NCBI GenBank assembly: GCA_028824555.1
Contig: JAPPDJ010000143.1
Location: 18,655-82,654 of the forward strand
Length of the DNA stretch: 64,000 bases
Source of the DNA: Gammaproteobacteria bacterium
GTDB lineage: Bacteria; Pseudomonadota; Gammaproteobacteria; Pseudomonadales; Azotimanducaceae
Direction of reading: 5' to 3'
Positions within the stretch are counted from its first letter, which is position 1. Every line of letters starts with the position of its first letter. The position numbers and the translations under genes are program-made. The notes under the pieces are model-generated. The model was given only the letters and a program-made list of their open reading frames with translations, did no database searches and had not been told where the DNA came from. Shown one piece after another: positions 2,462 through 57,659 of the stretch.

Positions 2462-3457
2462 ATGAGGATTTGCCAAGTGCTCGCCGCGGCCGAGGATGGG
2501 GGCGTGGAGAACCACGTCTATGCCCTCGCGGGCGCGCTTGCCGAGCGCGGCGACGACGTTGCACTGATCGCCCATTCGAAGCACGCCACATCGGTGTGCA
2601 GCAACGTGGCCTTCCATGCCGTGGACCTCACCCGCAGCCGCCGCAACCCGCTAGCGCGACGCGATTTGCAGCGGGCCATAGCCGCCGCAAAGCCGGACGT
2701 CGTCCACGCCCACGCCGGCAAGGCAGCCGCACTGGTGGCCGCCTTGGCGCTCCCTTGCCCCACCGTCGGCACCGTGCATGGGACCAAGCGCGATCTCGCC
2801 GCCTACAAGCGCTTCACGCAGGTCATTGGCGTCAGCCAGGGCGTGATCGATCAACTCGACCATCCGGCCAAGGCGGTCGTGTACCACGGTGTGCCGGCGC
2901 CGAAACCCGGTGCCGGCGCCTGCCGCCAAACCATCGCCCGAGAGCTCGGCATCGACCCGAACCGCCCACTCTCCCTCGCCGTAGGGCGACTGGTCCCGGT
3001 GAAGGGGTTCCACACTCTCATCGAATTCTGGCACGAAGACCTCGGCAACCTCGTGATCGCCGGCGAGGGTCCCGAACGCCGTCGCCTGCAACGACTCGCC
3101 GCCGGACGCCCGGTGGTGCTGGCCGGCTTTCGAGGCGATGTCCGCAACCTGATGCAGGCGGCAGACCTCTTGGTGATCTCCTCCACCCGCGAGGCATTCC
3201 ACCTCGGCATGGCCGAGGCATTGCGTGAACGGCTGCCCGTGGTTTCGACCCGCGTTTGCGGCCCCGAGGAGATCCTGCCACCCGAACAGTTGGCAGACTC
3301 GGGCAGTCTCGAGGCCACCATCCGCCGCTCCCTTCTCGACCTCGACGCCACACGCGGGCGAATGGCTCCCACCTTCGACTGGGCGGAACGAACGCTCACC
3401 GTCGAGCGCATGGTGGATGAGACCCGTCGCGTGTATACCCAGGCGATGGCGGCATGA
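2462..3457 (+). CDS. Glycosyltransferase family 4 protein
   Basis: MRICQVLAAAEDGGVENHVYALAGALAERGDDVALIAHS...PDVVHAHAGKAAALV...VGRLVPVKGFHTLIEF...EGPERRRLQ. Confidence 0.88.
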   Translation: MRICQVLAAAEDGGVENHVYALAGALAERGDDVALIAHSKHATSVCSNVAFHAVDLTRSRRNPLARRDLQRAIAAAKPDVVHAHAGKAAALVAALALPCPTVGTVHGTKRDLAAYKRFTQVIGVSQGVIDQLDHPAKAVVYHGVPAPKPGAGACRQTIARELGIDPNRPLSLAVGRLVPVKGFHTLIEFWHEDLGNLVIAGEGPERRRLQRLAAGRPVVLAGFRGDVRNLMQAADLLVISSTREAFHLGMAEALRERLPVVSTRVCGPEEILPPEQLADSGSLEATIRRSLLDLDATRGRMAPTFDWAERTLTVERMVDETRRVYTQAMAA

Positions 3458-4506
3458 AGAGCCTCAATGTCCTCGTCGTCTCGGACGGCCTGCCGGGGCA
3501 TCTGAACCAGTCCCGCGGCCTCGCCCACTGGCTCGGCACGCGCTTCGCCGTAGAGACCCAGGAACTGGAAGTGCGCCTCAGAATGCGAGCGATGGCACGC
3601 CGCATCCTGCCGCTCGTGGTGGAAGTGGCACCGGCCATGGCGACGCTGCGCTCCTTCTACCAACTGCCGGCATTGGCGGGAGCGGCACCCGACGTGATCG
3701 TCTCGGCCGGCGGCAACACCTCCTTCGCCAACGTGCTCCTGGCCCGACATTTCTGCGTGCCCAACGTCTTCATCGGCTCCCGAAGGCGGCTCGCGCCAGG
3801 CTCCTTCGCCGCCCATCTGACGCTGGAACCAACCGGCGAGGCCGGCAACGTCGTGACACCGGTGGCGCCAAGCCCCGTTTCCCCCGAAGCCATCGCGCAG
3901 AGCGCGGCGGAGTTCCGCGCGCGGCACGGCTTTGCCGACGGAAGGCTTTGGCTCATGGCCTGCGGCGGCACCGGCGCTGGCAAGTCCTACAGCGCCGACG
4001 ACTGGAGCACGCTTGCCCACTGGATGAACGATGCCGCCGAGTCCCACGGCATACGCTGGCTGCTTTCCACGTCACGCCGCACGGGAGCTTCCGGCGAAGA
4101 GGCATTGGCGGCGAGCCTGAAGGCCGACCACCTCGCCTACGCAGTGTGGTGGAGCCGCCACCCGGAACGCATCCTCGGCACGCTGATGGGGGCCGCGGAG
4201 CGGCTGTTCGTGACCGTGGACAGCATGTCCATGGTCAGCGAGTGCATCGGCGCGCAGAAACCGGTAGCAGTGGTGGACGTGGGCGACGGCGCGCCCGAGC
4301 CGCTGTTGGCCAAGGCGCTCGATCGATATGCCCGACTGGGCCTGTGCCGGCGCGTCTCGGTGGCAGACTCGCTTGACGCCGCGCCAGAAACCCTTGCGAC
4401 CGCCGACGACCTCCGCGAGGAATCCATCGACCAACTGCTCGAGCGCTTGCGCCTCAAACCCTCGGCTGCTAGGAGGCCGCGCCGTAGAAACGGCGCTAGC
4501 TCCTAG
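3454..4506 (+). CDS. Mitochondrial-fission ELM1-like family protein (putative nucleotide-sugar/LPS-related)
   Basis: SDGLPGHLNQSRGLAHWL, VSAGGNTSFANVLLAR, LLSTSRRTGASGEEAL, VDSMSMVSECIGAQKPV; overlaps the upstream GT by 4 bp. Confidence 0.7.
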   Translation: MKSLNVLVVSDGLPGHLNQSRGLAHWLGTRFAVETQELEVRLRMRAMARRILPLVVEVAPAMATLRSFYQLPALAGAAPDVIVSAGGNTSFANVLLARHFCVPNVFIGSRRRLAPGSFAAHLTLEPTGEAGNVVTPVAPSPVSPEAIAQSAAEFRARHGFADGRLWLMACGGTGAGKSYSADDWSTLAHWMNDAAESHGIRWLLSTSRRTGASGEEALAASLKADHLAYAVWWSRHPERILGTLMGAAERLFVTVDSMSMVSECIGAQKPVAVVDVGDGAPEPLLAKALDRYARLGLCRRVSVADSLDAAPETLATADDLREESIDQLLERLRLKPSAARRPRRRNGASS

Positions 4507-4583
4507 CCGTAGCTGCGAGCAAATGCGAGCACTAAGGCCAGCAGTTGCGAAGCAACTGCCGACGCGCTCGTAGAGCGCGCTAG
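4469..4583 (+). repeat. Multi-hairpin dispersed repeat, copy A (full length, CTAG at both ends)
   Basis: CTAGGAGgccGCGCCGTAGAAACGGCGCtagCTCCTAG ... GCAGTTGCGAAGCAACTGC cgac GCGCTCGTAGAGCGC GCTAG. Same module order as the copy at 63707..63824 (inverted). Confidence 0.85.
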
Positions 4584-4598
4584 CTGAGCCCATTCCAC

Positions 4599-11182: not shown

Positions 11183-12203
11183 CGCGTCGATGGCGCAGAA
11201 GACTCGTAGCCGTATATGCGAGCGAACGCGAGCACGAAGGCCAACAGTTCGCGCGAGCGAACCGCCGACGCGCGCTTCAGGGCGCGCTAGCGCCGCGTTG
11301 CGGTGGAGCCTAGCGTCGCTCCTGCTGCCACTCTTCTTCGCAGCATCTCCTGCCGCCGGGGCGTGGGGCGCCGAGGTGATCCACCGCGAGCAGTCGCTCT
11401 ATCAGACCATCCTCGTCGTCCGCCGGGGCGATCTGCTGTGCCTGCAGTTCAGCACCCGGCAAGAACGGCGCAACCAATCCTGCCGCGACGAGACGGACCC
11501 GAGCCGCCTAGTGTTCGGCTACACCCGCATGATGCTGGCCGCATTGCTGCTGAACCCAGAGCCGGAACGCATCTTCATGGCTGGCCTCGGTGGCGGCTCG
11601 CTGGTGGTGGCGCTGACCGACCTGCTGCCCGAAGCCACCATCGACGTGGTGGAGATTGATCCCGCCGTGGTGGACGTCGCGCGCCGCTTCTTCGAATTTG
11701 AGCCGGGCTCGCGCACAAGGGTGATTGTTCGCGACGCCAGGGTGTTCGCCAAGCGGGCGCTCCGGGAGGGTGCCAGCTACGATCTCATCCTCCTCGACGC
11801 CTACGGTGGCGACTACATTCCGGAGCACCTGATGACCGCCGAGTTCTTGGAGGAAGTCGGGGAGCTTCTCGCGCCCGGTGGCGTGGTGGTGGCCAACACC
11901 TTCGCCCACAGCCAACTCTACGACCACGAGAGCGTCACCTACCGCCAGGTGTTCGGGCCTTTCTACAACCTCAAGCGCAACGACAGCGACAACCGCATTG
12001 TCCTCGCGATGAACGATTCGCTGCCGCCCAAGGAACTGCTCACGAGCAACGCCAACCGCTGGCGGGGCGCAATGCGGCCGCTCGGAGTCCCGGTTGCCTC
12101 CTATCCGAGAGCCCTGACGACCCGCATCGACTGGGACCGGGACAAGCGGGCCCTGACGGACCAGTACTCGCCGGCAAACCTGCTGCGGGAAAGGCCGCGG
12201 TGA
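11172..12203 (+). CDS. Spermidine synthase-like methyltransferase domain protein (start uncertain; N-terminus encoded by repeat copy B)
   Basis: RIFMAGLGGGSLVVALTDLLPEATIDVVEIDPAVVDVARRFF, YDLILLDAYGGDYIPEHLMTAEFL. Confidence 0.82.
   Translation: MGADASMAQKTRSRICERTRARRPTVRASEPPTRASGRASAALRWSLASLLLPLFFAASPAAGAWGAEVIHREQSLYQTILVVRRGDLLCLQFSTRQERRNQSCRDETDPSRLVFGYTRMMLAALLLNPEPERIFMAGLGGGSLVVALTDLLPEATIDVVEIDPAVVDVARRFFEFEPGSRTRVIVRDARVFAKRALREGASYDLILLDAYGGDYIPEHLMTAEFLEEVGELLAPGGVVVANTFAHSQLYDHESVTYRQVFGPFYNLKRNDSDNRIVLAMNDSLPPKELLTSNANRWRGAMRPLGVPVASYPRALTTRIDWDRDKRALTDQYSPANLLRERPR
11204..11290 (+). repeat. Multi-hairpin dispersed repeat, copy B (lacks recognisable hairpin 1)
   Basis: CGTAGCCGTATATGCGAGCGAACGCGAGCACGAAGGCCAACAGTTCGCGCGAGCGAACCGCCGACGCGCGCTTCAGGGCGCGCTAG, aligns with copies A and C. 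Confidence 0.8.
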
Positions 12204-12256: not shown

Positions 12257-12391
12257 CCAGGTAAGTCGGACTTTGCCGCGCCGGCGGTGAAGCGCGACTT
12301 ACCTGGTAGCCGTAGCTGCGAGCGAACGCGAGCACGAAGGCCAGCAGTTCGCGCCAGCGAACTGCCGACGCGCCCTACAGGGCGCGCTACC
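12257..12391 (+). repeat. Multi-hairpin dispersed repeat, copy C (different outer hairpin)
   Basis: CCAGGTAAGTCG...CGACTTACCTGG outer inverted repeat followed by TAGCCGTAGCTGCGAGCGAACGCGAGCACGAAGGCCAGCAGTTCGCGCCAGCGAACTGCCGACGCGCCCTACAGGGCGCGCTACC. Confidence 0.8.
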
Positions 12392-14522
12392 ACCGCGCCT
12401 CCACCAGCAACCCCACCACCCGGTTCGAATAGCGCGGCATCGCACGGCCAGTCGTCAGGACGTTGCGAATCGTGTCCATCGCCACGCCATCGAACGCCCA
12501 ATCGGCACTTCGGTAGCGTTCGCCGTAGTGGCGCAAGGCCAACGTGACTCGGTCGCTGTAGCGGTATCGAACCGTGATGTCGAGAGAAGATTGTTCGGAG
12601 ACGAGAGCCGGGAAGATGGAGGCCGCCGCCGGCGTCTCGGCCAACGAACGGGTGGTCCGGTACACGCCTTCCCCGGAAGAGCGTACGTATGCGAAGGAAA
12701 GGTGCAGCCGGTCGTTTGCGAGCAGACTGGATTCGAGTGTGACGCCGTGGGCAGCCACGACGTCGCGGCTGGTGGACCACCAATCCGCCACACCAAACGC
12801 CCCGCTTCCCGCACTCGAAAAAGCGGCTCGCTGCCCGTCGTAGAAACCGGACAGAGTGGCCTTCATCCCGAACGCATAGCTGAAGTCCACGCCCCAGCCT
12901 CGGTCTTCGTCGTGGAGGCGGCCCAAGGCCGAGTCGGGGTAGTCGTTCCTGCGCCGGTCGGCATAGAGGCCGAGCGACAAGCCGGAAGCGCCCACGTCAC
13001 CATGCAGCCGCGCCTTCCACCCGCGCTGCTCCCGTTCGGCTTGGTGGAACCGCCGCGTAAGCGGGTTGTTGGTGCCGCGCGCTTCGAATGCCGCTGCCCG
13101 ACGCTCCCCTCGCGAGGCCTTGAGGGTCGCCCCCAAGCTGCGCCAGCGGGCAGCGGCTTCGAGCCAAAGCCCCGCCTCCTCGTTTCGAACCACCTCTGGC
13201 CGCGAACCCGACGAAACCTGTCGGCCGAGGGCAGCCTTCGATGCGCCCGCCGCCAGTCGCACGCCACGCGGCAGCCGATAGCGCAGGCGTAACTCCGTGC
13301 GGTGGCGGTCGAAGCCATGCGCGCGGTTGGTGCGCGCCGGCATCGCCACCAAGTCGCCGAGCACCGGTGTCCAGGTTCGAAGTGGCGTCCGGTTGTTTCG
13401 CTGCAATCGACGATGCGACACATCGAGTCGCAGTCGCCCGGTGACGCGGCTCACAGCCCGCACCGATCCCGCAAAGCCATGAATGTGGCCTTCGAGACTC
13501 GGCGCCGGAGGCGGGAATCCAGCAAGGGCATCCCCCGCGGCCCCGGAGACGAACGCCTCGTCCTGGTGCCCTCGCGACCACGACAGCCGGCTGTGGATGC
13601 TGGTGCGACCCAAGGTGGAACGTGCGGTCCACGACAGTGTGCGCAGCGCGTTGCTCGGTGCGAGGGATTTGCGGCCCATGGGCACGGGACCGGGATATGC
13701 ACTCTCCCACGCCAGCGCCGGCGTGGTGTTGGCGAAGCGCGCTTCGCGCGCTTCGACGGCGAGCAGCCAGGGGCGCGCTCGAAAGCTGGCGCGCACGCCA
13801 AACGCTTCCGTCCGGTAATCCACGGGCTTGGGCAAGATTGCCGCTTGGTAGAGGAAGTCCGCCCCCGTTTCCTCCGTGCCACGCTTGGTCTCGCGCAGGT
13901 AGTCGGTGTGCAGTCGCCAACCCGGGCTCGGCTCAAAACGCCAAGCCGCGCCGACGCGACGCCGATGGGTAGCGAAGCGAAAGGACCGCGCCGAGTTCAG
14001 ATCGGCCATGGCGGCGGTGTCGTAGGCCTTGGTCCAATCTGCCGGCAGCGACAGCGAGCCACCGTCGGCCCTGACATAGGGCGTGCGCCCATCGACCGCA
14101 ACGTTGCGCGGCGTCTCCCGCCACTGCAACGTCGTCGTGCCGGCACTCGGATGGGCGAACAGCACACGAAGTTGCCGGGCATCCAGCCCCAGATCGGCAC
14201 CTTCGACAGTCGCCATGCGACCATCCTCGCCGCTGTAGCGAACGTTGACGGCGACATCCGCATGATTGCCGTCGCGGTCCAGTCCGTTGTCCCGCCCGAA
14301 CCGAGGCTCTGCCTCTGCCACCGCCAACACGCCGGCCGCGACGCTCCCTTCACGACGAAACGCGTCGTCGAACGGGCAAAGCCGACATCGCCATCGGTCC
14401 GTGCGTGCCTTGGTGTAGTCGGCCGTGAGTGGCTCCCCAGACGCCGCCACTCCCGACTCGGCCACAGCAAACAAAAGGGCTGCGACGCACCAGTTCCCAA
14501 GCGGGCACCGCCTCGCGTTCAT
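12387..14522 (-). CDS. MtrB/PioB-family decaheme-associated outer membrane beta-barrel protein
   Basis: Signal peptide, N-terminal CRLC (CxxC), alternating amphipathic strands throughout, terminal aromatic VGLLVEARW; ATGA overlap with upstream decaheme cytochrome. Confidence 0.85.
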   Translation of the reverse strand: MNARRCPLGNWCVAALLFAVAESGVAASGEPLTADYTKARTDRWRCRLCPFDDAFRREGSVAAGVLAVAEAEPRFGRDNGLDRDGNHADVAVNVRYSGEDGRMATVEGADLGLDARQLRVLFAHPSAGTTTLQWRETPRNVAVDGRTPYVRADGGSLSLPADWTKAYDTAAMADLNSARSFRFATHRRRVGAAWRFEPSPGWRLHTDYLRETKRGTEETGADFLYQAAILPKPVDYRTEAFGVRASFRARPWLLAVEAREARFANTTPALAWESAYPGPVPMGRKSLAPSNALRTLSWTARSTLGRTSIHSRLSWSRGHQDEAFVSGAAGDALAGFPPPAPSLEGHIHGFAGSVRAVSRVTGRLRLDVSHRRLQRNNRTPLRTWTPVLGDLVAMPARTNRAHGFDRHRTELRLRYRLPRGVRLAAGASKAALGRQVSSGSRPEVVRNEEAGLWLEAAARWRSLGATLKASRGERRAAAFEARGTNNPLTRRFHQAEREQRGWKARLHGDVGASGLSLGLYADRRRNDYPDSALGRLHDEDRGWGVDFSYAFGMKATLSGFYDGQRAAFSSAGSGAFGVADWWSTSRDVVAAHGVTLESSLLANDRLHLSFAYVRSSGEGVYRTTRSLAETPAAASIFPALVSEQSSLDITVRYRYSDRVTLALRHYGERYRSADWAFDGVAMDTIRNVLTTGRAMPRYSNRVVGLLVEARW

Positions 14523-52620: not shown

Positions 52621-52714
52621 CGCCGCGATGATACCGTCCATTGCTGTCCGACTTCGGTGTCCGGCCCTCGGAGGACGATGCCTTCCCTGTCGCGCACTAG
52701 CGCATGAGGAAGAA

Positions 52715-52789
52715 GGGCGACGCATGCGTCGCCCCTACGGCCCGGGACATGACCGACGCCTTCCTGTAGGGGCGACGCATGCGTCGCCC
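52715..52789. repeat. Inverted pair of perfect palindromes GGGCGACGCATGCGTCGCCC
   Basis: 24-bp perfect inverted arms 52715..52738 and 52766..52789, each containing a 20-bp self-complementary palindrome. Confidence 0.9.
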
Positions 52790-53199
52790 TGTCCGGCAGC
52801 CGGGTGCATCGCGGCCAAGTCCGACAGACTGCTAGCGCTTGAACATCAAGGGGACCGGGGGACCCGGAGGGAGGGCGTCCCGCCCTCCAAGGGCCCGGGC
52901 GATACCCGACAGGCTTCCTCGCGTTGGAGGCGTTGTTTGAGGCTGGCGCTTCGTTGGCATTGTCTGGGACGCATGCTGCGGTGGCCTTGGCCGCTCCGCT
53001 GCGTGCGTGCCTCCGGCACGCTTGGAGGGCGAGCGCCGCCAAACCCCTCGCTAGCGCTCGGGGTCTGGCCCCAGCCCCCACCTCCCCATGACCTTGCACC
53101 GCATCCGCGGCGGAACGCCGCTCCTGCGGTGCAAGCTCTTGGCGCCCTCCCTCCAGGCCCGTCCATGTGGAAGGAAGTGACCGTACACTTTGTCACACC

Positions 53200-55416
53200 A
53201 TGAACGCACTCCTGCTGGAATCCGCCCCTGCATTCCTTGACGCCGCTCCGGCGGAGGACGTGCTGATCCGGGCCCGTGCGGACGTCGCCGGCAACGGCTC
53301 GTTTGGCGAGCAGTGGGTCGTGGTGGACCAAACAAACGTGCGGGTGTTCGTTGGCGGCGCGCATGGAACGGTGCAGCGGGTGCCGATTGCAGAACTCATC
53401 GCCTGTCGCAGCGAATCGAGCGTTGGCGGTGGGGCGATAGTGCTCGAACGTGCTGGCGAGGCGCCCATCCGCATCCGCTACTCGCAATCGGAAGCGGCGA
53501 AGTTCTCCGAGGTGGTGCGCGGCATCGAGCAGTTGCGGGAAGGCAAGGCGTTCCACATCAACGGGCACGTTCAGCGGAATCGTTGCTCCACTTGCCGTCG
53601 CCTGCTGCCGGAAAAGGACGGCATCTGTCCTGCCTGCATTCACAAGGCTGCGACGCTGGCGCGGCTGGCGGTGCGGTTGTGGCCGTATAGGCTGCGGACG
53701 ATGGCCGTGGCAGTTGCGTCGCTGTTCGTGACTGCGGCTGCGCTCGCGCCGCCGCTTGTGACCGCCATGATCGTCGATGATGTGCTCGTGCCAGCCGATG
53801 GGCCTCCGCCTATGGAGGAGCGCCTCGGATTGCTTGCGCTGCTGGTGGCGGGGCTGGTCGGCATTCGGGTGGCTTCTTGGGCCGGCGAGTGGGTGCATGG
53901 CTGGAACGCCACCTGGCTCGGCGCACGGGTCACCGCCGACATCCGCGCCGAGCTCTACCACCGGCTGGAGATGCTCTCGCTGCCCTTCTACGACAAGCAT
54001 CCGGTGGGCTCGCTGATTGCCCGGGCAACCCGCGATGTGCAGATGCTGCAAGGGTTTCTGATCGATGGGGTGCCCTATCTCGTCACCAATCTGCTGACGC
54101 TGGTGGGCATCCTGGCGCTGATGGTCGGCATGAGCCTGCACCTCAGCCTCTACGTCCTCCTTCCGGTTCCCTTGATCCTGCTCTGGGGCGCGTTCTATTG
54201 GTCGCGGCTGCGCATGTTGTTCACGCGCCTGATGCAGTCTTGGGGGCGTCTGACGGATCGCACGGTAGAGACGCTCACGGGCATTCGCGTCGTGAAGGCG
54301 TTCGCGCAGGAAGCGCGGGAGATCGGTTCCTTCAACGTCGCCAACGGCGGCATACGCGCCGCCGGCATCCGCGTGAAGCTGCACCAGGGCATTTTCTTCG
54401 CCACGATGGCGCTCATCACGGCGCTTGGCATGATGCTGGTATGGGGCGTCGGTGGGCAGCAGGTGCTCGATGGCGCCATAACCCTCGGTACGCTGGTGGC
54501 CTTCTATTCCTACATGTGGATGTTCCTCGGCCCGATTCAATGGCTCGGCGAGATGAACGACCACATGTCCCGCGCGTTCGCGAGCGCCGAGCGCATCTTC
54601 GAGATCATCGACGCGCCGCCTGAAGGCGCCATCGAGGGTGCGGTGGTGAAGCGGCCCCCGATCGCGGGGCACGTGCACCTCTCAGATGTCACCTTCGGCT
54701 ACGACAAGAGCAAGCCCGTGCTCAAGGGCGTGGATCTGGAACTGCGACCCGGCGAAATGGTGGGCATCGTCGGCCGCTCCGGCGTCGGCAAGACCACCAT
54801 CGTCAACCTGATCGCCCGCTTCTACGACCCGGACCAGGGCAGCGTGGAGATCGACGGCATAGACGCGCGCGAGATGGACCCAGGGCACCTCCGCTCGCAC
54901 ATCGGCATGGTGCTGCAGGAGCCGTTGCTGTTCTCCGGCACCATTGTGGACAACATCGGCTACGGCAAGCCGGGCGCCACCTTGGCCGAGATCATGGACG
55001 CCGCCCGCGCCGCCAATGCCCACAACTTCATCATGGCGAAGCCGGACGGCTACGAGACGCCGGTGGGGGAGAAAGGCACCGGGCTTTCCGGCGGCGAACG
55101 GCAGCGGATTTCCATTGCGCGCGCCATCTTGCGCGACCCGCGCATCCTCATCTTCGACGAGGCCACGGCTTCCGTGGACGTGGAGACGGAGCGGCACATT
55201 CAGGTGGCCCTCGAACGATTGATGCAGGGCCGCACCACCATCGCCATCGCCCACCGCCTCTCCACACTGCGGGATGCAAGTCGCATCGTGGTCATAGAAG
55301 ACGGCCGCATCAGTGAACAGGGCTCTCATGCCGAACTCATGGAAAAGCGAGGCACGTTTCACGAACTGGTGCAGATGCAGCAGGCCACGTCCGAGATCAT
55401 CGCGGTGGCGGACTGA
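53200..55416 (+). CDS. ABC exporter (TMD-NBD) with N-terminal extension and zinc ribbon
   Basis: N-terminal ~110 aa, CSTCRRLLPEKDGICPAC, ABC TMD, Walker A GRSGVGKTT, LSGGERQR, ILIFDEATASVD. Confidence 0.93.
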   Translation: MNALLLESAPAFLDAAPAEDVLIRARADVAGNGSFGEQWVVVDQTNVRVFVGGAHGTVQRVPIAELIACRSESSVGGGAIVLERAGEAPIRIRYSQSEAAKFSEVVRGIEQLREGKAFHINGHVQRNRCSTCRRLLPEKDGICPACIHKAATLARLAVRLWPYRLRTMAVAVASLFVTAAALAPPLVTAMIVDDVLVPADGPPPMEERLGLLALLVAGLVGIRVASWAGEWVHGWNATWLGARVTADIRAELYHRLEMLSLPFYDKHPVGSLIARATRDVQMLQGFLIDGVPYLVTNLLTLVGILALMVGMSLHLSLYVLLPVPLILLWGAFYWSRLRMLFTRLMQSWGRLTDRTVETLTGIRVVKAFAQEAREIGSFNVANGGIRAAGIRVKLHQGIFFATMALITALGMMLVWGVGGQQVLDGAITLGTLVAFYSYMWMFLGPIQWLGEMNDHMSRAFASAERIFEIIDAPPEGAIEGAVVKRPPIAGHVHLSDVTFGYDKSKPVLKGVDLELRPGEMVGIVGRSGVGKTTIVNLIARFYDPDQGSVEIDGIDAREMDPGHLRSHIGMVLQEPLLFSGTIVDNIGYGKPGATLAEIMDAARAANAHNFIMAKPDGYETPVGEKGTGLSGGERQRISIARAILRDPRILIFDEATASVDVETERHIQVALERLMQGRTTIAIAHRLSTLRDASRIVVIEDGRISEQGSHAELMEKRGTFHELVQMQQATSEIIAVAD

Positions 55417-57659
55417 TGGCGGCTTTCGACCAGGCACTGCCACCGCGAGTCCGGCAGCGGGTCGAAGCCCAGAACGGGGGGCCGGTTGCGACTGTTGCGT
55501 GCCTTGCCAGCGACATGGCCACTGCCGGACGGTTTGGTCAGCAGTGGTTGGTGGTGACTCGCGAGGCGGTGTACCGAATCGGCGAACGGCCCGAGGACGA
55601 CCGCCGCCTGCCCGTCGACGCCATCACCGAAGTCGAAACCGTCAATCGCGTCGGCGCCGAAGTGTTGCGGCTGGGCACGCAAGATGGCCCGCCGCTTGAG
55701 ATCGTCCACTCGAGGTCGCTCGCATTTGCGTTTGGCGAAGCCGCCGAGGCGGTGCGGAGGCTCTTAGGCGAGAAGGAGCCCAGCCTGCCGCACGAGGTGG
55801 ACGACGCCCGCTGTAGCCGATGCAAGCGCCTGCTGCCGGAACGCGGGGGCATCTGCCCCGCCTGCATCCGCAAGCGCGACACCTTGCTGCGGCTCTTGCG
55901 CCTCGTGCTGCCGTATCGCTGGCCGGCGCTGGCGCTCTTGGGCCTCACGGCTTGCGGGTCGCTGCTCGGCCTTGCGCCGCCTTACATCACCAAGCGCATC
56001 GTCGATGATGTGCTCACCGCCGATGGCAGCACCGGCCTTCTGCTTGCTTTTGTTGGGGCTCTCGCCGGCATCGCCGTGCTCGCTTGGGGCATCGAAATCC
56101 TGCGCCGGTGGCTGAACGGCATCGTTGGCTTCCGCGTCTCCGAGCAACTGCGGGCAGACCTCTTCCGAGCGCTGCAGTTCCTGCCGCTTCGGTTCTACGA
56201 CAGGCGCAAGGTGGGCTCGCTCATCTCTCGCGTCAACACCGATTCCGAGCTCGTCGAGCTGCATCTCATTTTCGATGCGCCCTTCATCCTCTCCAACGCG
56301 GTGATGCTGGTGGGCGTCCTGACGATGCTGTTCGTGATGGACTGGCAACTCGCGCTCTGGGTGCTCGTACCCGTGCCACCGCTCGTGGTTGGTGCCGCGC
56401 TGGTGTGGAATCGGATGGAAGTGCATTGGCGGCGGTGGTCGATTCGCATGGCGAGCCTCGCCTCGCACCTGAACGAATCCATTGGCGGCATCAGAGTGGT
56501 GAAGGCATTCGCCCAGGAAGAGCGGGAAGGCCGCCGATTCGACGGCCGCAACCATGCCCTGCGCGACGCCACGGTGACCTCCGAGCGCTCGTGGCTGAAG
56601 TTCATGATGGTGACGCAGTTCGTGATGAGCTTCGGCGCGTTCTTCGTCTGGTACTTCGGCGGCGCGAGCGTCGTTCGGGAAGAGCTGACGCTGGGCGTGT
56701 TGCTGGCATTCGTGGCGTACCTGTGGATGCTCTATCAGCCGATGCAGTGGTTCAGTGACTACTACAGCTTCATGGTGCGCGCCTATGCCGGCGCCGAGCG
56801 CATCTTCGAGGTGATCGACAGCCGGCCGGAAGCGCACGACGGGCCTGCAGCCAGCCGCAAATGCGCTACCGGGAAGAGTGTGGGGATCGCCGGTCGGGTC
56901 ACCTTCGACAACGTGTCCTTCGGCTACGACCCGGGACAGATGGTGCTCCGCGACATCGATCTCGACGTGGCCCCCGGCGAGATGATTGGCTTGGTGGGCC
57001 GTTCCGGCGTCGGCAAAAGCACGATGATCAATCTCGTCACCCGCTTCTACGACGCCGAGCACGGCACTCTGCGGCTCGATGGCAGAGACATCCGAGAAGT
57101 GCCCCTCGATGAACTTCGATCCCGCATCGGGCTGGTGGCGCAGGACTCGCTGCTGTTCAACGTCAGCATCGCCGACAACATCCGCTACGGACGCCCGGAT
57201 GCATCCTTCGAGGAAGTGCTGCGTGCGGCCCGTGCCGCCAACGCCCACGAGTTCGTCATCGCTCGCCCAGACGGCTACGACACCCTGGCCGGCGAGATGG
57301 GCAACCGCCTCTCCGGTGGCGAGAAGCAGCGCATCGCCATCGCTCGCGCCATCCTGCACGACCCGCAGATTCTCATTCTCGATGAGGCAACCTCTTCGCT
57401 GGACACCGCCACGGAGAAGAAGATTCAAGAGGCCATCGCTCGGCTGGTGAAGGGCCGCACCACCTTCGCCATTGCCCACCGTCTCTCCACCCTGCGCAGT
57501 GCAGACCGGCTCGTCGTGCTAGATGAGGGCCGCATTGCCGAGACGGGCACCCATGAAGAGCTGATGGCCAAGCGAGGCATCTTCCACTCGCTTGTCGAGG
57601 CGCAGCGGGCGACCTCTCGCGTGCTTGCGGACGAGGTGGCCGAGCGGGAGGCGGCGTGA
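55416..57659 (+). CDS. ABC exporter (TMD-NBD) paralogue with N-terminal extension and zinc ribbon
   Basis: CSRCKRLLPERGGICPAC, GRSGVGKST, LSGGEKQR, ILILDEATSSLD; ATGA overlap with upstream ABC gene. Confidence 0.93.
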   Translation: MAAFDQALPPRVRQRVEAQNGGPVATVACLASDMATAGRFGQQWLVVTREAVYRIGERPEDDRRLPVDAITEVETVNRVGAEVLRLGTQDGPPLEIVHSRSLAFAFGEAAEAVRRLLGEKEPSLPHEVDDARCSRCKRLLPERGGICPACIRKRDTLLRLLRLVLPYRWPALALLGLTACGSLLGLAPPYITKRIVDDVLTADGSTGLLLAFVGALAGIAVLAWGIEILRRWLNGIVGFRVSEQLRADLFRALQFLPLRFYDRRKVGSLISRVNTDSELVELHLIFDAPFILSNAVMLVGVLTMLFVMDWQLALWVLVPVPPLVVGAALVWNRMEVHWRRWSIRMASLASHLNESIGGIRVVKAFAQEEREGRRFDGRNHALRDATVTSERSWLKFMMVTQFVMSFGAFFVWYFGGASVVREELTLGVLLAFVAYLWMLYQPMQWFSDYYSFMVRAYAGAERIFEVIDSRPEAHDGPAASRKCATGKSVGIAGRVTFDNVSFGYDPGQMVLRDIDLDVAPGEMIGLVGRSGVGKSTMINLVTRFYDAEHGTLRLDGRDIREVPLDELRSRIGLVAQDSLLFNVSIADNIRYGRPDASFEEVLRAARAANAHEFVIARPDGYDTLAGEMGNRLSGGEKQRIAIARAILHDPQILILDEATSSLDTATEKKIQEAIARLVKGRTTFAIAHRLSTLRSADRLVVLDEGRIAETGTHEELMAKRGIFHSLVEAQRATSRVLADEVAEREAA

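Follow-up and report, generated by a model that had tools for sequence, protein, structure and literature searches.

A dispersed hairpin repeat bounded by CTAG and conserved in structure in a gammaproteobacterial genome and its relatives

A short repeat with CTAG at both ends, recognised in a 64,000-nucleotide stretch of a gammaproteobacterial genome (the whole of this stretch is called the window below), is real, dispersed and structure-conserved, and works like a small non-autonomous transposable element. Taking the evidence jointly, it is probably best explained as an element of ~107 bp (plus CTAG) that inserts at CTAG and may be moved by an HUH-type enzyme. Homologous elements, recognised by alignment, are also shown to exist in another phylum, the Acidobacteriota.

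Results

Copies in the window

The initial annotation described a 115-bp CTAG-bounded repeat at 4469-4583, and the letters are as described, with hairpins at 4470-4505, 4541-4559 and 4563-4579. This copy (copy A), its parts and the other copies in the window are given below in window coordinates. G014 and G009 are sister genomes, with stretches 88-99.8% identical to the genome that holds the window (G000).

4468..4584, plus strand: copy A, a full-length Type I element including one target base on each side (G-CTAG...CTAG-C)
4469..4472, no strand: left CTAG of copy A, the target site or first half of the insertion signature
4470..4505, plus strand: hairpin 1 of copy A, the conserved left-end hairpin (CTAGGAG..TGCGCCG..CGGCGC..CTCCTAG)
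4504..4506, plus strand: TAG within hairpin 1, the current end of the open reading frame 3454-4506 (Pfam ELM1-like)
4506..4538, plus strand: linker stem (fourth stem) of copy A, TGC/GCA here and GGGT/ACCC elsewhere
4541..4559, plus strand: hairpin 2 of copy A, GCAGTTGC-GAA-GCAACTGC
4563..4579, plus strand: hairpin 3 of copy A, GCGCTC/GAGCGC, flush with the right CTAG
4580..4583, no strand: right CTAG of copy A
11203..11291, plus strand: copy without hairpin 1, missing at the orthologous sites of G014 and G009, where the junctions are not clean
12257..12391, plus strand: composite copy with an alternative first hairpin, then the linker stem and hairpins 2 and 3
42711..42760, plus strand: short copy with hairpins 2-3 only, common to G014
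47212..47262, minus strand: short copy with hairpins 2-3, between divergent genes
48062..48115, plus strand: short copy with hairpins 2-3, within the predicted 3' part of gene 47331-48167
63706..63825, minus strand: full-length inverted copy (covariance model E 1.4e-24)

Copy A folds better than all 200 of its dinucleotide shuffles (z = -4.3 as RNA, -4.5 as DNA). The inverted full copy claimed at 63707..63824 is recovered by the covariance model as 63706-63825, and the claimed partial copies are located at 11203-11291, 12298-12391, 42711-42760, 47212-47262 and 48062-48115. The one claimed near 12257 is indeed a copy of the repeat but is not truncated; it begins with a different first hairpin (CCAGGTAAGTCGGACTTTGCCGCG..). 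The end of this composite overlaps the stop of a minus-strand gene (12387-14330), and the right CTAG of the inverted copy (63707-63710) is the stop codon of a cytochrome c-like gene (63324-63710). The target tetranucleotide is under-represented, with 49 CTAGs in the whole window against 99 expected from trinucleotides.

Two further features of the window were observed. Another set of dispersed repeats, distinct from this one, lies at 52693-53156; parts of it have dozens of matches in G014 and many in G009. At 53167-57659, two large adjoining genes share a 700-bp stretch with 70% DNA identity, a tandem duplication.

Copy number and structural conservation

A covariance model (R1) built from 23 copies finds at least 145 copies in the 4.2-Mb genome of the window at a threshold of E <= 0.001, out of at most 150 candidates scored per search; BLAST gives 41 matches there. 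The two sister genomes carry at least 143 and at least 136 copies, and a complete relative (G012) carries 37. A genome-wide model search of this kind had been proposed at the outset, and the copy number that it returns is far above control. Among 131 model-aligned copies, 95.8% of cells are paired compared with 83.1% after shuffling and 29-49% in slid controls; this estimate leans towards the model because the alignment was fitted to it, and the slid controls show the size of the effect. Compensatory changes, at least one with both sides changed for each pair, are seen at all 38 base pairs of these copies, which bears out the earlier claim that the sequence drifts while pairing is kept. The linker forms a covarying fourth stem, TGC/GCA in some copies and GGGT/ACCC in others. 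At one locus of G012 (L152) the layout is kept with most of the sequence after hairpin 1 different: the linker stem is built on TGGCCA and the third hairpin is CGCGATGCATCGCG, ahead of CTAG.

The initial annotation held that no annotated feature type explains the repeat, and no Rfam family matches it. At the gathering threshold the whole window yields one tRNA only, and six element-bearing loci of several types have no Rfam match at E <= 0.5.

A modular family

The original picture of a three-hairpin dispersed repeat holds as far as conserved structure and CTAG ends are concerned, but there is no one fixed unit; the copies form a modular family. The left hairpin, CTAGGAGNNTGCGCCG, is conserved and the remainder is modular, with a last hairpin that directly abuts CTAG. 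The copies comprise full elements, those with an alternative first hairpin (AGCCTGTCGGACTTTGCCGCG..) and short copies of hairpins 2-3. The left end CTAGGAGNNTGCGCCG also heads other interiors. One of these arrangements, Type II, consists of CTAGGAGCTTGCGCCG...GGGGCTGGGGCC...GGTTTGGCGGCG-CTAG, and its alignment contains 32 predicted pairs, 8 of which have changes on both sides. Terminal inverted repeats are absent from full elements, the left ends reading GAGGCTGCG / GAGCTTGCG and the right ends, read inwards, CGCGCCC / CGCCGCC. The ends are also unequal, since the left CTAG is intact with the right one changed in 16 copies and the reverse is seen in 4 (p = 0.012). A check for GTAG or GGAG 5' of the palindrome found that CTAGGAG precedes hairpin 1 and CCGTAG precedes the linker stem, with no single REP-like unit. 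In Acidobacteriota, tandem units can be identical (105 and 107 bp) and are joined head-to-tail by one CTAG.

Two comparisons with G014 concern changes within and between copies. Copy A (4468-4584) and its counterpart in G014 (L174 14008-14124) have almost identical flanks, but hairpin 1 holds several of the 7 differences, and its left arm in G014 is complementary to its right arm in G000; this looks like hairpin-templated correction. At another locus (L034 163-1299 against G014:C174:23068-23072), G014 lacks ~1.1 kb between two element copies and is joined over ~5 bp at repeats, possibly through a repeat-mediated deletion.

Empty sites

Flanks of 40 copies were joined and used as queries against the three genomes. 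Copy A is absent from G009, which reads GGCC-GCAAGC-TGAG against GGCT-GCTAGGAG...GCGCGCTAGC-TGAG at the filled site; the G009 counterpart of the open reading frame 3454-4506 stops at a TGA directly after the empty GCAAGC. Clear empty sites were found as GCTAGC for L119, as GCTAGT in two genomes for L193 and as GCTAGT for L095. A further copy (L091) interrupts another repeat, uninterrupted copies of which read GCTAGC, GCTAGT or GCAAGC. An empty N-CTAG-N thus corresponds to a filled N-CTAG-[element]-CTAG-N, as in a 4-bp target duplication or possibly with a CTAG borne by the element itself. The further base beside each CTAG in alignments is part of the target, not of the element. Two empty sites read CAAG or CGAG, so that either the target is loose or these sites have mutated. 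The remaining site differences are partial deletions or rearrangements between repeats. Clean empty and filled sites in close relatives are the mark of a non-autonomous mobile element with a CTAG target, and the element very probably enters CTAG and comes to be bounded by CTAG on both sides.

Gene ends and stop codons

Placement in the gammaproteobacterium was judged with a simple coding model for its own genus, the sample being 84% coding. None of 46 full copies, which include orthologous pairs of G000 and G014 and are therefore not all independent, lies inside a gene, and for 31 the distance to a stop is no more than 40 bp. Both orientations are represented, and the flanking genes may be convergent, tandem or divergent. 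A terminal CTAG serves as the stop codon of a neighbouring gene in 15 of the 46; one copy (L129) does so at both ends, for two convergent genes. Stop-codon CTAGs are enriched at elements (15/46) relative to CTAGs outside them (22/222; Fisher p = 2e-4), but the excess is not significant when only non-coding and stop CTAGs are compared (15/46 against 22/103, p = 0.16). Selection against gene disruption may therefore suffice in the gammaproteobacterium.

Of 27 non-tandem left ends from Acidobacteriota, 18 have their TAG exactly at the close of an open reading frame of 450 nt or more, with 3 and 11 doing so in the control frames; these loci were picked for a left end, not for gene position. In-frame Pfam domains, for example NupC, RadC, L25, MTHFR and YbbR, are found in 15 of the 18. 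The left end mostly faces the gene, and some right ends sit at the ends of long antisense frames. An acidobacterial gene caller, which scored only 2 sense stops and many positions as coding, had little training sequence and is contradicted by Pfam; it was set aside.

CTAG is its own reverse complement and carries TAG on both strands, so insertion in a C-TAG stop restores the stop on either side. With the stop restored for either flanking gene, the element can multiply at gene ends, up to hundreds of copies, and leave the genes intact.

Distribution across phyla

A scan of genome contigs found hairpin 1 in the Gammaproteobacteria MAGs SB0662_bin_60 and SB0665_bin_27, in an 'uncultured Pseudomonadales' chromosome and in Acidobacteria/Vicinamibacterales MAGs. 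From the isolate names, we read the hosts as sponge symbionts. With one mismatch allowed, the left end matches 216 times in the acidobacterial genome G060, and its reversed control 15 times. Between the phyla, Type II elements align with up to 82% identity (median 74%), whereas shuffles reach at most 59%. That Gammaproteobacteria and Acidobacteriota carry the same family suggests that it has moved from one phylum to another. Contamination of MAGs was considered as the cause of the cross-phylum pattern and rejected, as a 6.1-Mb Vicinamibacterales chromosome record (L110) and three acidobacterial genomes contain the left end, and copies sit on the stops of genes that belong to these genomes. Phages and plasmids gave no element match; the sole IMG/VR hit, on a contig of 45% GC, is a chance match, and carriage by phages or plasmids was rejected.

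Search for the moving enzyme

A Y1_Tnp profile search covered 16 genomes of the genus and acidobacterial genomes. Single RAYT-like genes are present in G000, G014 and G009. The initial annotation had suggested a RAYT/Y1 partner carrying the element at its ends, and the genes found by this search are not linked to the element. The sole Y1_Tnp/RAYT gene of the window's own genome is surrounded by a different REP pair, with no element nearby. Four carriers (G012, G013, G059 and G061) have no detectable Y1_Tnp; G012 has 37 element matches and no Y1, and G007 has two Y1 matches and no element. The Y1 gene of G060 is an interrupted fragment without element ends.

The RAYT-like Y1 gene of G000 is a single gene at ~1333-2196 of L056 (G000:C24:8666-11896), beside an inverted pair of the other REP (GCGGGCTTGCGCCCGCGATGGAGGGCGGGACGCCCTCC). 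That REP recurs inside other CTAGGAG-headed composites (L213, L221, L225).

Discussion

The absence of terminal inverted repeats, together with the unequal ends, limits the choice of mechanism. An HUH-type, IS91-like mechanism would fit best, and could quite plausibly be the right one. The HUH-type enzyme may act in trans on single strands, a step proposed with the same reserve; the conserved left hairpin (CTAGGAGNNTGCGCCG) would be its recognition site, and the cut would fall at a CTAG-like tetranucleotide past any sequence that happens to follow downstream. The proposed step resembles the one-ended transposition of IS91/IS801, and IS801 yields one-ended products bounded by a target-like tetranucleotide (PMC3189936); cleavage between C and T would be shared with TnpA_REP. 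Such a one-ended model would explain the conserved left end with its variable interior and right end, and also the missing terminal inverted repeats and the identical head-to-tail tandems with one CTAG.

A MITE of IS5 type, moved by a DDE transposase encoded elsewhere and duplicating a 4-bp CTAG, is an unlikely alternative that would leave the same footprint. IS5 duplicates Py-T-A-Pu (YTAR), mostly CTAG and once CAAG (PMC5493358), and MITEPsy1, of 100 nt, duplicates CTAG or YTAA (PMC3189936). Hairpin 1 alone is moreover a CTAG-bounded palindrome and could represent two back-to-back inverted ends (L211). Against this, the termini of full elements are not inverted repeats of each other (GAGGCTGCGCCG on the left, CGCGCCC inwards on the right), their ends are unequal in variability, and no insertion sequence with such ends was seen among the sequence examined. 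It is similarly improbable that the element is a REP/BIME-like repeat spread by the resident RAYT (TnpA_REP), which would cut CTAG between C and T with GTAG as guide. TnpA_REP does cleave between C and T and uses a GTAG guide (PMC8266576), the element has the same C-T step in the CTAG at both ends as well as CCGTAG before the linker stem, and each of the three close genomes has its single RAYT-like gene. However, the resident RAYT is flanked by a different REP pair, and the element and Y1 occur apart in G012 and G007. An RNA element under selection for a regulatory or 3'-end role (as mRNA stabiliser or terminator), spread by recombination and only secondarily mobile, would account for the strong stem conservation, the placement just after stop codons and the mostly gene-facing left end in Acidobacteriota, but is highly improbable given that presence varies at orthologous sites of close relatives, that both orientations and all three gene settings occur, that no T-run follows the hairpins and that copies can be tandem or nested.

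The non-autonomous element favoured here shares features with several known systems. Like REP, BIME and REPIN sequences it is short, high-copy, palindromic, extragenic and modular, C-T cleavage would fit its CTAG ends, and GTAG is present; unlike REP/RAYT systems, the resident RAYT has another REP, several carriers are without Y1, and the element is ~107 bp long with four stems and a fixed CTAG target. IS5-family MITEs such as MITEPsy1 are likewise ~100 bp with CTAG on both sides, but the element has no terminal inverted repeats, only its left hairpin is conserved, and its right half is variable. One conserved end, another set by a target-like tetranucleotide and the lack of inverted repeats recall the one-ended products of IS91/IS801; the target is however CTAG and not GAAC/CAAG, the conserved end is a CTAG-containing hairpin, and a Y2 transposase for the element is putative. 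PATEs, non-autonomous IS200/IS605 derivatives, also have end palindromes and a tetranucleotide target, whereas no related IS200/IS605 element was found in the carriers and the left and right hairpins of the element are mutually unrelated. The element is not filed as REP, MITE or PATE because a defining feature of each was looked for and is missing.

No description of the repeat was found in the literature available as open-licence papers. A tentative overall view is that it represents an undescribed, cross-phylum family of mobile hairpins in sponge-type bacteria, which would enter C-TAG stops, restore them on both strands and be recognised by their enzyme at one end only.

Few unexplained components of bacterial genomes are as abundant as short palindromic repeats, and their harmless arrival at gene ends has mostly been a matter of guesswork. 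With filled and empty sites available in a close trio of genomes, the mechanism is open to testing. A simple answer would be a rare palindromic target that doubles as a stop codon, as insertion would repair the stop that it enters, on either strand.
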